Origin: Tateyamaria sp. Alg231-49
Lineage (GTDB): Bacteria; Pseudomonadota; Alphaproteobacteria; Rhodobacterales; Rhodobacteraceae
NCBI RefSeq assembly: GCF_900143535.1
Contig: NZ_FRFA01000001.1
Coordinates: forward strand, 349,552 to 413,551
Direction: 5' to 3'
Length of the DNA stretch: 64,000 nucleotides
Shown here: positions 5,457-54,580 of the stretch, piece after piece
How positions within the stretch are numbered: the first letter of the stretch is position 1
How the letters are laid out: each line of letters begins with the position of its first letter
Made by a program: the position numbers and the translations under genes
The notes under the pieces: model-generated
Seen by the model: only the letters and a program-made list of their open reading frames with translations
Told to the model about the DNA's origin: nothing
Database searches by the model: none

Positions 5457-5667
5457 CGGATGTCGTCCTTTGGAGTGGGTCAAAGATCTGGTCTTCGCCG
5501 ACCTTTAGCACAGACAGATGAGCGGAGTCTGCCAGCGCCGCACAGCCCTTGCCCTAATCTGTCCTGTGCTGGGGACTGCTCTTGATTCCCAACCTGCACT
5601 GTAACGCCCTGATGGAAGAAAACCCTGCATCCTGCGTCGCGTTTCTATGCGGGAAACATGAACAATA

Positions 5668-5730
5668 GGTTAATCCACCTCTGTAAGCCATTGATTTCAC
5701 GTGTCCCTCGTCGTGTCCCAGCGTGGGACA
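5668..5730 (+). repeat. 63-bp conserved intergenic element, copy 1
   Basis: Blocks GGTTAAT, CCTCTGTAA, CCATTGA and the palindromic end GTGTCCCAGCGTGGGACA occur with spacings of 3, 1 and 18 bases. Exactly the same blocks and spacings occur in inverted orientation at 54229-54291. The 18-base spacer differs between copies, so the blocks appear to be under constraint. In copy 1 the palindrome extends to 8-bp arms (5713-5731). It lies 90 bp before the amino-acid transporter start. The rest of 5457-5819 shows no gene. Confidence 0.65.
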
Positions 5731-5819
5731 CTCCAGAGGCCCAAGCCCAGCAAATACCCCTAGACTCCCCTGCTCTCATTTCCGATGATCCGATGGAATT
5801 CAAAACGGGGACTGTTGCC

Positions 5820-42301: not shown

Positions 42302-42388
42302 GGGGGGGCACCTGTTATGTGAGAGCTCGAGTTGACGCTACGCTAACACGTCTGACACCGGGTGCAACGTGACCTCGCGAAATGGTTA

Positions 42389-42411
42389 GCGTGTCGCAGG
42401 GTGCGACACGC
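42389..42411 (-). terminator. Strong hairpin downstream of the ETF-QO gene
   Basis: GCGTGTCGCA (42389-42398) and TGCGACACGC (42402-42411) form a perfect 10-bp stem with a 3-nt loop, 8 bp after the ETF-QO stop. It has no T-run on the minus strand, so it may stop transcription only partly or protect the mRNA 3' end. Confidence 0.55.
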
Positions 42412-42418
42412 ACATAGC

Positions 42419-44068
42419 TTACATATTGGGATAATTCGGCCCGTCACCGCCCTGTGGCGTGGTCCACGTGATGTTCTGCGCCGGGTCCTTGATGTCACAG
42501 GTCTTGCAGTGCACGCAATTCTGGAAATTGATCACAAAGCGGGTGTCTTTGCCCTCTTCCTCGACAAACTCGTAAACACCTGCCGGGCAATAGCGCGCCG
42601 AGGGACCTGCGTATTTGGCAAGGTTCGATTTCACGGGCACGTCCGCGTCTGTCAGATGCAAATGCGCAGGCTGGCTTTCTTCATGGTTGGTAAAGCTGAA
42701 GGCCACGTTGGTCAGGCGGTCAAAGGACAGCTTTCCATCCGGTTTGGGGTAATCAATGGCAGTATGCTTGGACGCCTCTTCGGTCGCGTCCGCGTCGTTC
42801 TTGCCATGCGCCTGCGTTCCGAACAAAGAAAAGCCAAGCGTGTTCGTCCACATGTCAAACCCGCCAAGCGTAAGCGATGCCATCAGGCCATATTTTGACC
42901 ACAACGGCTTGACGTTGCGCACTTTTTTCAGGTCTGCACCAATGTCGCCATCGCGGACTTCGCTCTCATAATCGGTTAGTTCATCGCCGGAACGCTCCGC
43001 CTTGATCGCATCGAACGCCGCCTCCGCAGCCGCTTTGCCCGAAAGCATCGCGTTGTGGTTGCCCTTGATGCGGGGGACGTTGACCATGCCCACGGAACAG
43101 CCAAGCAACGCCACGCCGGGCGCGACCATCTTGGGCATGGACTGGTATCCACCTTCAGAAATCGCGCGCGCGCCGTAGGCCACCCGTTTGCCGCCCTTGA
43201 GCAGTTCGGCCACCATCGGGTGATGTTTGAAGCGCTGGAACTCCATGTAAGGGAACAGGTGCGGGTTCTTGTAGTTCAGGTGCACCACAAACCCGACGTA
43301 AACCTGATTGTTCTCAAGGTGATAGATGAAAGATCCACCGCCCGCGTTCTTGCCCAGCGGCCAGCCCATGGTGTGGGTAACGGACCCTTCCTTGTGCTTG
43401 TCGGGGTCAATTTCCCAGATTTCCTTCATGCCAAGGCCGTACTTCTGAGGCTCCGAGTCCTTGGCCAGATCGTATTTCGCGATCACTTCTTTGGAGAGCG
43501 ACCCGCGTACACCTTCGGACAGGAACACGTATTTGCCATGCAGCTCCATGCCGGGTTCTGTGCCTTCACCAATGGACCCGTCCGCTTCCAGACCAAAGAC
43601 ACCAGCGACCACGCCTTTGACTTCTCCGGCCTCACCATAAACCAGTTCAGAACAGGCCATGCCCGGGAAAATTTCGACGCCCAGTTCCTCCGCCTGCTCG
43701 GCCATCCAGCGACACACATTCCCCATCGATACGATGTAGTTGCCGTGGTTGTTCATCAGGGGCGGCATGGGAAAGTTGGGGATACGGATCTGCCCCGCCT
43801 CGCCCAGCATATAAAACTTATCTTCCTTGACGGGCACGTTCAGCGGCGCGCCTTTTTCTTTCCAATCAGGGATAAGTGCGTCAAGACCACAAGGGTCCAG
43901 CACCGCACCCGACAGGATGTGCGCGCCCACTTCTGACCCTTTCTCCAAAACAACGACGTTCAGATCAGCATCAAGCTGTTTGAGACGAATGGCTGCCGAC
44001 AGGCCCGCGGGGCCAGCACCCACGATTACCACGTCATATTCCATTGCTTCGCGTTCTATCTCGGCCAT
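42419..44068 (-). CDS. Electron transfer flavoprotein-ubiquinone oxidoreductase
   Basis: A 549-residue iron-sulfur flavoprotein that passes electrons from reduced ETF (fatty-acid and amino-acid oxidation) to ubiquinone at the inner membrane. YDVVIVGAGPAGLSAAIRLK is the FAD motif; YCPAGVYEF and CVHCKTCDIKDP hold the four Cys of the 4Fe-4S cluster; PRIKGNHNAMLSGKAAAEAAF is a family block. GGA lies six bases before the ATG. Complete and of normal length. Functionally linked to the acyl-CoA dehydrogenase near 61 kb. Confidence 0.95.
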   Translation of the reverse strand: MAEIEREAMEYDVVIVGAGPAGLSAAIRLKQLDADLNVVVLEKGSEVGAHILSGAVLDPCGLDALIPDWKEKGAPLNVPVKEDKFYMLGEAGQIRIPNFPMPPLMNNHGNYIVSMGNVCRWMAEQAEELGVEIFPGMACSELVYGEAGEVKGVVAGVFGLEADGSIGEGTEPGMELHGKYVFLSEGVRGSLSKEVIAKYDLAKDSEPQKYGLGMKEIWEIDPDKHKEGSVTHTMGWPLGKNAGGGSFIYHLENNQVYVGFVVHLNYKNPHLFPYMEFQRFKHHPMVAELLKGGKRVAYGARAISEGGYQSMPKMVAPGVALLGCSVGMVNVPRIKGNHNAMLSGKAAAEAAFDAIKAERSGDELTDYESEVRDGDIGADLKKVRNVKPLWSKYGLMASLTLGGFDMWTNTLGFSLFGTQAHGKNDADATEEASKHTAIDYPKPDGKLSFDRLTNVAFSFTNHEESQPAHLHLTDADVPVKSNLAKYAGPSARYCPAGVYEFVEEEGKDTRFVINFQNCVHCKTCDIKDPAQNITWTTPQGGDGPNYPNM

Positions 44069-53166: not shown

Positions 53167-53901
53167 ATGCCCTTCACCACCACCAAATCCGCCTTTTGGG
53201 CGGGCGTGCGCGACGGCGCTCCGTTCATCTTTGTGGCTGGACCCTTTGCGCTGCTGTTCGGGGTGATCGCAACCGAGGCGGGGTTGAGCATATTCGAGGT
53301 AATCAGTTTCTCGGTCGTGGTGATCGCTGGGGCGGCCCAGTTCACTGCGTTGCAACTGATGCAGGACGAGGCGCCGACAGTGATCGTGCTACTCTCGGCG
53401 CTTGCGGTAAACCTGCGGGTGGCGATGTATTCGGCGGCTCTGACCCCCTATCTGGGACGCGCCCCGCTCTGGCAAAGGGCGTTCGCTGCGTACCTGCTGG
53501 TGGATCAAAGTTATGCGCTCAGCCATGCCAAGTTCGAGGCAGACGCATCGATGAGTATACCTCAACGGATGGCTTATTATTTCGGGACTTGCCTCTTGGT
53601 GCTGATCGTGTGGTTCGGGTGCAGCTATGCGGGTGCAGCCATTGGCACAGCGCTGCCCGTCGGCCTGCCAATCGATTTTGCCCTGCCGATTGCATTCCTG
53701 TCGATGGTGGCTCCGATGATGCGCACCCTGCCCCATCTGATCGCGGCAGGGGTGGCGGTGGTGGTGGCGCTGCTAGCCGTGTCCATACCTTACTCGCTTG
53801 GTCTGATCGTGGCGGGCATGGCGGGTATGATCGCGGGCGCGCAGGCTGAGGTTTGGCTGCGCGCCGATCCGATGCTGCCCGTAGATGAGGATCCCCAATG
53901 A
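53167..53901 (+). CDS. azlC: Branched-chain amino acid exporter, large subunit AzlC
   Basis: A 244-residue membrane protein of the AzlC/YgaZ family. GVRDGAPFIFVAGPFALLFG opens the first helix; FSVVVIAGAAQFTALQLM and LRVAMYSAALTPYLG are the conserved blocks. With AzlD it exports branched-chain or related hydrophobic amino acids. ATGA overlap with azlD. Divergent from fdhD, with no obvious regulatory gene nearby. Confidence 0.9.
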   Translation: MPFTTTKSAFWAGVRDGAPFIFVAGPFALLFGVIATEAGLSIFEVISFSVVVIAGAAQFTALQLMQDEAPTVIVLLSALAVNLRVAMYSAALTPYLGRAPLWQRAFAAYLLVDQSYALSHAKFEADASMSIPQRMAYYFGTCLLVLIVWFGCSYAGAAIGTALPVGLPIDFALPIAFLSMVAPMMRTLPHLIAAGVAVVVALLAVSIPYSLGLIVAGMAGMIAGAQAEVWLRADPMLPVDEDPQ

Positions 53902-54221
53902 TGGACAAGGATACCCTCTGGATTGTGATCTTTGGCCTTGGCATCGGCAGCTTTCTGCTCCGCTTTGCCTTCCTTGGGTTTGTCGGGGACAGGCCGCTGC
54001 CGGCGTGGCTGGTGCGGCACCTGCGTTATACGGCTGTGGCGATCCTTCCGGCCCTTGTGGCCCCGCTGGTGGTCTATTCTGGCGAGGGTGGCACCACTGA
54101 TCCGACCCGTTTGGGCGCGGCGGTGGTCACGCTGGGTGTGGGCATCTGGACCCGCAATGTTTTTGCCGCCATTGGGGCGGGTGCAGCGACATTGTTTTTG
54201 CTGGTCTACATCCTGGGATGA
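53898..54221 (+). CDS. azlD: Branched-chain amino acid exporter, small subunit AzlD
   Basis: A 107-residue protein with about four helices (IVIFGLGIGSFLLRFAFLGF, YTAVAILPALVAPLVVY, the GAAVVTLGVGIW and AAIGAGAATLFLLVYIL regions). This size and pattern with the neighbouring AzlC identify the AzlD/YgaH partner. Its start overlaps azlC by four bases. The 63-bp repeat element begins eight bases after its stop. Confidence 0.88.
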   Translation: MMDKDTLWIVIFGLGIGSFLLRFAFLGFVGDRPLPAWLVRHLRYTAVAILPALVAPLVVYSGEGGTTDPTRLGAAVVTLGVGIWTRNVFAAIGAGAATLFLLVYILG

Positions 54222-54228
54222 CCCGGAC

Positions 54229-54291
54229 TGTCCCACGCTGGGACACCTTTCCACCATAACAAATTCAATGGGTTACAGAGGCCAATTAACC
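54229..54291 (-). repeat. 63-bp conserved intergenic element, copy 2 (inverted)
   Basis: Read on the minus strand it carries GGTTAAT, CCTCTGTAA, CCATTGA and GTGTCCCAGCGTGGGACA with spacings of 3, 1 and 18 bases, exactly as at 5668-5730 on the plus strand. Here the palindrome has 7-bp arms (54229-54235 and 54239-54245). It lies directly after azlD and could also fold in the transcript. Confidence 0.65.
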
Positions 54292-54580
54292 TGTTCTTCA
54301 GGTTTACACCAATTATCGCGTGGCATGGAAGCGCTTGGAAGATGTCTGTTTTGACTGTCTCGGCATCATCACAACCGCCGATTTGACACCAACGCGCGAT
54401 GGGTGAAACGCCTCGTTCCGGGGGCTTTAGAGATCAAGGATATCCGCGCGCAGGCCCGTCGCGCAGAGGCCCGCCAAATCGCCAATCCCGGATGAGGAGC
54501 GCACTGGAGATTGATCGTGCCTTTGGCTTGATCCCGATCTGCTCTCTTTGCGGCGGCAGCTGGGCCTTTGCCAGACCGCT
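54292..54580 (+). other. 289-bp stretch with a possible gene remnant
   Basis: No complete gene is convincing. One plus-strand frame reads RWVKRLVPGALEIKDIRAQ and continues to a TGA near 54495, with protein-like charge pattern but no upstream start or ribosome site. It may be the tail of a decayed small gene. A short open frame at 54399-54584 in another phase looks non-coding. Confidence 0.35.

Follow-up and report, generated by a model that had tools for sequence, protein, structure and literature searches.

A repeated three-module site, placed mostly behind gene ends, in Tateyamaria and other Rhodobacteraceae

The window analysed here, a stretch of 64,000 nucleotides from Tateyamaria sp. Alg231-49, carries four short blocks, GGTTAAT, CCTCTGTAA, CCATTGA and GTGTCCCAGCGTGGGACA, separated by spacings of 3, 1 and 18 nucleotides, at 5668-5730 (+) and, inverted and with identical blocks and spacings, at 54291-54229 (-), and the locus raises the question of what such a rigid arrangement is for. 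The two copies, their spacings and an 18-nt spacer that differs between them were found exactly as described in the initial annotation, the limits of which proved too short: the true limits are 5650-5733 (+) and 54226-54309 (-), and the extension beyond the four blocks consists of cAAAccTTAACA at the left and CCC at the right. A covariance model trained on 34 copies recovers copy 1 with 77.6 bits (E 8e-25) and copy 2 with 75.8 bits (E 3e-24) in a 249-kb search. The last block, already noticed as palindromic, contains a true 17-bp palindrome, the pattern of which gives six matches in the window (three places on two strands each), where shuffles lead one to expect 0.09. Across 142 copies from about 20 genomes the element is ~83 bp long and consists of a TTAA box (TTAAC-n6-TTAA), a core with the consensus CCTCTGTAACCCATTGAwTT, a variable spacer of fixed length and the 17-bp palindrome TGTCCCAGCGTGGGACA, and its full consensus is gnncAAAccTTAACAaanggTtAATnCGCCTCTGTAACCCATTGAwTTt-n16-YGTCCCAgCgTGGGACRccc. 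The parts of the two window copies are:

5650..5733, + strand: copy 1, whole element including CCC past the palindrome (covariance model match, 142-copy consensus)
5659..5674, + strand: copy 1, TTAA box TGAACAATAGGTTAAT (alignment of copies)
5678..5697, + strand: copy 1, core CCTCTGTAAGCCATTGATTT, containing the reversed IHF consensus YAANNNNTTGATW as TAAGCCATTGATT (putative IHF binding, from sequence)
5698..5713, + strand: copy 1, variable spacer of fixed length (copy alignment)
5714..5730, + strand: copy 1, 17-bp palindrome TGTCCCAGCGTGGGACA (palindrome pattern search)
54226..54309, - strand: copy 2, whole element (covariance model match)
54285..54300, - strand: copy 2, TTAA box TGAAGAACAGGTTAAT (copy alignment)
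54262..54281, - strand: copy 2, core CCTCTGTAACCCATTGAATT, with IHF-like TAACCCATTGAAT (pattern search)
54246..54261, - strand: copy 2, variable spacer of fixed length (copy alignment)
54229..54245, - strand: copy 2, 17-bp palindrome TGTCCCAGCGTGGGACA (palindrome pattern search)

Copy 1 lies in the gap between divergently oriented SnoaL-like and SBP_bac_3 genes, ~90 bp upstream of the start of the latter, and the palindrome end of copy 2 adjoins the stop codon of azlD (53898-54221 +; Pfam AzlD). No sigma-70 promoter was found at copy 1, and a promoter reading of the element itself (TTAACA-N17-TGTAAC) was rejected because key -10 bases are missing. To the left of the element neither further conservation nor an AT-rich stretch was detected.

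A genome-wide search for the blocks, as the initial annotation had proposed, shows that the two copies belong to a larger set in this genome and its relatives. In the Tateyamaria genome the core alone and the palindrome alone each match 25 places and the covariance model finds 29 copies, which are spread over all large contigs (twelve contigs) without clustering. The palindrome starts exactly 19 bp past CCTCTGTAANCCATTGA in 24 of the 25 core matches, and the spacing is equally rigid across species. The 25th match is a divergent copy (L025, G000:C28:548995-549080; 25.6 bits) with the core CCTCTGGAACGCATTGATTTT and a different palindrome, TATGCC...GGCATA, at roughly the usual offset. Within the genus the pattern search finds copies in 10 of 20 species; by the model these ten carry 5 to 30 copies each and the other ten 0 to 3. 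In the family a pattern match occurs in 11 of 397 genomes (as a rule one genome per genus), the richest being Citreimonas salinaria with 69 copies and Allosediminivita pacifica with 37, and many Rhodobacteraceae have none. Outside the Rhodobacteraceae only doubtful matches were obtained; one of them, to the genome G045 from another family, coincides with the beginning of a tRNA and probably arose by chance. Relaxed matches to the core without the palindrome in G024, G025, G022, G012, G011, G026 and G023, and likewise in G014 and G015, were dismissed as chance, as they have neither TTAA box nor palindrome. The model identifies one or two true remnants each in G012, G014, G015, G018 and G006, and in four of these seemingly empty genomes (G006, G014, G015 and G018) the one or two elements have a 16-bp palindrome of the type TGTCCCCGCGGGGACA. 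The plasmid pLA6_002 (CP031587) carries two copies with an 18-bp form of the palindrome, one behind hutU and one before the stop side of sucD at ~66.9 kb; it was considered as a pointer to a trans-acting factor, and no linked DNA-binding gene is apparent. Copies in opposite orientation lie side by side (G007:C1 165959 + and 175011 -), so that there is no replichore polarity of the FtsK or Ter type, and no tRNA or tmRNA neighbours were found at the elements. In searches of open-licence papers no description of this element in Rhodobacteraceae was found.

The copies have a preferred place. With adjoining genes called by a codon-usage script and in a 142-copy sample that includes orthologues, the gene on the palindrome side converges on the element in 105 copies, with its stop codon at a median distance of 8 bp, compared with a median of 73 bp for converging stops on the opposite side (asymmetry p 5e-7); gene starts are asymmetric likewise (64 versus 197 bp). 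Copy 2, at the azlD stop, is typical in this respect. The palindrome side lacks a converging gene in 37 of the 142 copies, copy 1 included, and a minority, to which copy 1 also belongs, lies ~40-110 bp before a gene start. The neighbouring genes are diverse and comprise clpB, hutU, an aminotransferase, a transglycosylase, M16 and M24 peptidases, a LysR gene and a citrate-type transporter.

The element does not have the form of an intrinsic terminator: it has a hairpin, whereas a T-run is absent from the consensus and from both window copies. Few gene ends in the window have an intrinsic terminator (3 of 37). Among 96 copies, 13 have one between the stop codon and the element, which then mostly begins 7-20 bp past the T-run; in these cases transcription from that gene probably does not reach the element, which is conserved nonetheless. 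At the clpB 3' end the element is present in both Tateyamaria and Citreimonas, and here a hairpin and T-run immediately follow the stop codon in four species that lack the element, whereas neither is present there in the seven species that have it.

The three conserved modules differ in what they resemble. Read backwards, the IHF consensus is YAANNNNTTGATW; the core contains a full match to it, and the cores of all aligned copies match the consensus. In addition, the four free positions of the consensus are less conserved in the core than its fixed positions (142 copies), and genes for both IHF subunits are present. We suggest on these grounds that the core is probably an IHF site. The palindrome is lineage-specific at its centre, which is mostly GCG in Tateyamaria, CCG in Citreimonas, TCG or TCA in one further genome (G192) and TGTCCCGGCCCGGGACA in Allosediminivita. 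In most copies of Allosediminivita (G302; L184, L178-L182) an additional half-site, CGGGACA, lies immediately left of the TTAA box. The TTAA box itself can be compared with the CtrA box, the consensus of which is quoted in PMC9040568 as TTAA-N7-TTAA with two half-sites: the half-sites are 11 bp apart, as in that consensus, and of the two the first is conserved and the second loose (T[TAG]AA).

Several other genera show an excess of palindromes of the form TGTCCC-N4-6-GGGACA, the centre being particular to each genus. One of these genomes, G107, has 43 copies with the palindrome TGTCCCCATGGGGACA. Ten copies collected by the palindrome only share a TTAGCGCTAA-like dyad at offset 28-29, nine of them recognised by script and one by eye; six of the ten also show an IHF-like site at offset 6-7 (null expectation 1.9% per window), and in five a stop codon lies 1-12 bp away. 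By sequence, G107 thus shows an independent lineage in which the same three modules are rearranged, with the IHF site reversed and closer, and in which the position at gene ends is the same. A locus in the window at 42334-42411 has an arrangement like that of G107 but with another palindrome: a perfect hairpin, GTGTCGCAGGGTGCGACAC, follows an ETF-QO gene (42419..44068 -) at a distance of 9 bp from its stop codon, beside a GCTAAC...GGTTAGC inverted repeat, and matches the model weakly (14.8 bits). The 16-bp type TGTCCCCGCGGGGACA also occurs apart from the element. Nine such palindromes form a parS-like cluster within 4.3 kb in another member of the Rhodobacteraceae (G125:C2:20292-24569); G106 (L329-L340) has 84 copies, many apparently within coding sequence and without the context of the element; and plasmid replication/partition operons at L348 (G020) and L362, where ParA-like and ParB-like proteins were recognised from ORF sequences, contain several, which are probably centromere-like sites.

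The initial annotation had also read the pattern as fitting a multipartite site under selection rather than a recent duplication, in which case the blocks should be conserved in orthologous intergenic regions. Comparisons of orthologous sites bear this out. In 34 comparisons (33 pairs, one counted twice), with orthology taken from homologous neighbours, ungapped identity is 86% in the core and 89% in the palindrome, values that are partly built in because the patterns used for collection fix parts of both, and, in the parts not selected for, 69% in the TTAA box, 46% in the spacer, 35% in the left flank and 45% in the right flank. The difference between core and palindrome on the one hand and spacer and flanks on the other points to selection on each copy rather than recent duplication. 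Less biased evidence comes from the single-block searches in the Tateyamaria genome, from the gene-end comparison for clpB and azlD and from the palindrome-only set of G107. Among the copies of the Tateyamaria genome, mean identity is 33% for spacers (69% at most) and 27% for flanks, which excludes recent copying. The element is vertically inherited and under purifying selection on its blocks, and not on its spacer and flanks.

These data also weigh on what kind of element this is. A mobile repeat, either a MITE or a REP element moved by a RAYT transposase, would be multi-copy, intergenic and patchy among species, and could have lineage-specific palindromes, as observed here; such an origin is nevertheless highly improbable given that selection acts on the blocks at orthologous sites in different genera, that no two copies in the Tateyamaria genome share spacer or flanks, that the ends of the element are not inverted repeats of one another and that 9 of 12 element-bearing genomes, including that of Tateyamaria, have no match to a Y1 (PF01797) transposase. 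The att-like or MITE-like nature once considered for the two window copies thus finds no support. Only slightly less improbable is the operator of an ordinary transcription factor regulon. The palindrome is of the operator type, and the minority of copies upstream of gene starts would suit it. The proposal of a site serving both an amino-acid importer and an amino-acid exporter is correct as far as copy 1 lies upstream of SBP_bac_3, but copy 2 lies downstream of azlCD, and shared regulation of amino-acid transport is not supported, since the genes beside the remaining copies are unrelated, and it is mostly their 3' ends that face the element. With no function common to the neighbours, three quarters of the copies facing a gene end and a fixed layout of three modules that is unusual for a simple operator, we regard this explanation as very unlikely.

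Two further explanations have more in their favor. In one, the element would act at the RNA level, in that a hairpin behind the stop codon would hold off 3' exonucleases or aid factor-dependent termination and the downstream blocks would serve as an RNA signal. Its placement directly behind stops, the stable 7-bp hairpin into which single copies fold, paired changes at two of the seven pairs and a centre that varies in length between lineages (palindromes of 16-18 bp), as a loop could, are all consistent with this, and changes that keep a wobble pair in gene-sense RNA are slightly in excess (19 versus 9), which is suggestive only. However, there is no U-tract, the copies behind an intrinsic terminator are still conserved, the folds of two of three Tateyamaria copies are no better than those of shuffles, and no Rfam match at gathering level was obtained in the window, nor any match at the elements of seven loci. 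Moreover, an RNA element leaves the conserved core unexplained, and the best-conserved stretch beyond the hairpin fits the consensus of a DNA-bending protein; we therefore consider it rather unlikely. In the other explanation, a ParB/RepB-like protein would bind the palindrome, and the element would serve, at dispersed places, as a centromere-like site or as an anchor for the nucleoid, with a layout like that of parS of phage/plasmid P1, in which ParB boxes flank an IHF site on both sides. The TGTCCCCGCGGGGACA relatives in plasmid operons with ParA-like and ParB-like genes, together with the tight cluster in G125, make this link attractive, the same 16-bp palindrome occurs in element context in G006, G015 and G018, and the half-site GGGACA in Allosediminivita is on the far side of the IHF core. 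Against it, the copies in Tateyamaria have a 17-bp palindrome and are dispersed, unclustered and tied to gene ends, half of the genus is without copies, and no ParB was linked to the element in this analysis, so that we rate this explanation as improbable, and more so than an RNA element.

Combining the probable IHF site with the gene-end placement and the evidence for selection, we suggest that the element is probably a mark or an insulator at transcription-unit ends. The specific proposal that this repeated three-module site is a nucleoprotein boundary at the transcription-unit edge is one to which we give an even chance. In this model, (i) IHF would occupy the core and bend the DNA, (ii) a palindrome-bound protein, probably a dimer, would meet a protein on the TTAA box across the IHF bend, (iii) a compact complex would form at the edge of the transcription unit, and (iv) this complex would limit read-through of RNA polymerase past the gene and/or pin transcription-generated supercoils. 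That the palindrome itself acts as a hard roadblock is unlikely: judging from its footprint, RNA polymerase would stop ~15 bp upstream of the palindrome, in many copies before the stop codon. The IHF/TTAA half would be the better barrier, leaving the palindrome transcribed. The most elaborate version, a dedicated roadblock or topological insulator in which the palindrome protein, IHF and the TTAA-box protein form one complex, each lineage has its own co-evolved pair of palindrome and partner, and this partner is perhaps of the ParB type and derived from plasmid partition, is speculative and on balance rather unlikely. As most gene ends lack the element and half of the species in the genus have few or no copies, any role must be dispensable. 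Selection on the blocks could also reflect another DNA function, gene ends being merely a convenient place.

A boundary-type role, acting on read-through or supercoils, has been proposed for the RIB/BIME elements of Escherichia coli and is still debated. BIME-1/RIB elements, the latter described by Boccard and Prentki in 1993 as cited in PMC2817692, are palindromic repeats at the 3' ends of transcription units in which the sequence between two inverted REPs binds IHF (PMC2817692). The Rhodobacteraceae element is likewise a dispersed intergenic repeat that combines a palindrome with a candidate IHF site, is placed at transcription-unit 3' ends and occurs in tens of copies with a patchy distribution between species. 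In contrast to RIB, it has no REP sequence or GTAG tag, has one GC-rich palindrome and a TTAA box instead of two REPs around the IHF site, keeps a rigid spacing and turns its palindrome consistently towards the gene end, and the Tateyamaria genome is without a RAYT transposase. The likeness is thus one of layout and place, while sequence, type of palindrome and geometry differ, and we do not file the element as a RIB. It resembles the GTAG and CGTC super-families of REPs in being short, palindromic and lineage-specific, and its arm can start with CGTC or TGTC; in CGTC REPs, however, the tag stays unpaired and the stems begin with AT (PMC3733652), whereas here CGTC/TGTC is within the paired arm, and the palindrome belongs, as one of several modules, to a longer conserved site. 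It shares with parS of Rhodobacteraceae plasmids the 16-bp relatives TGTCCCCGCGGGGACA in partition operons, but differs from it as dispersed single copies at gene ends, with a 17-bp palindrome and no adjoining parAB. Correia/NEMIS elements of Neisseria are also intergenic repeats with an IHF site (a candidate one here); they measure 105-155 bp, end in inverted repeats and show signs of mobility (PMC2229807), and the Rhodobacteraceae element has neither such repeats nor such signs.

The element represents a family that shares layout and position with RIB/BIME but is unrelated to it in sequence; it occurs in a different class of bacteria and is under demonstrable selection at each copy. The clpB 3' end, with and without the element in different species, provides a natural experiment for distinguishing between termination, supercoil insulation and DNA anchoring, and the palindrome-binding protein could be approached through the lineage-specific palindromes and through the 16-bp relatives that these have in partition operons of plasmids.
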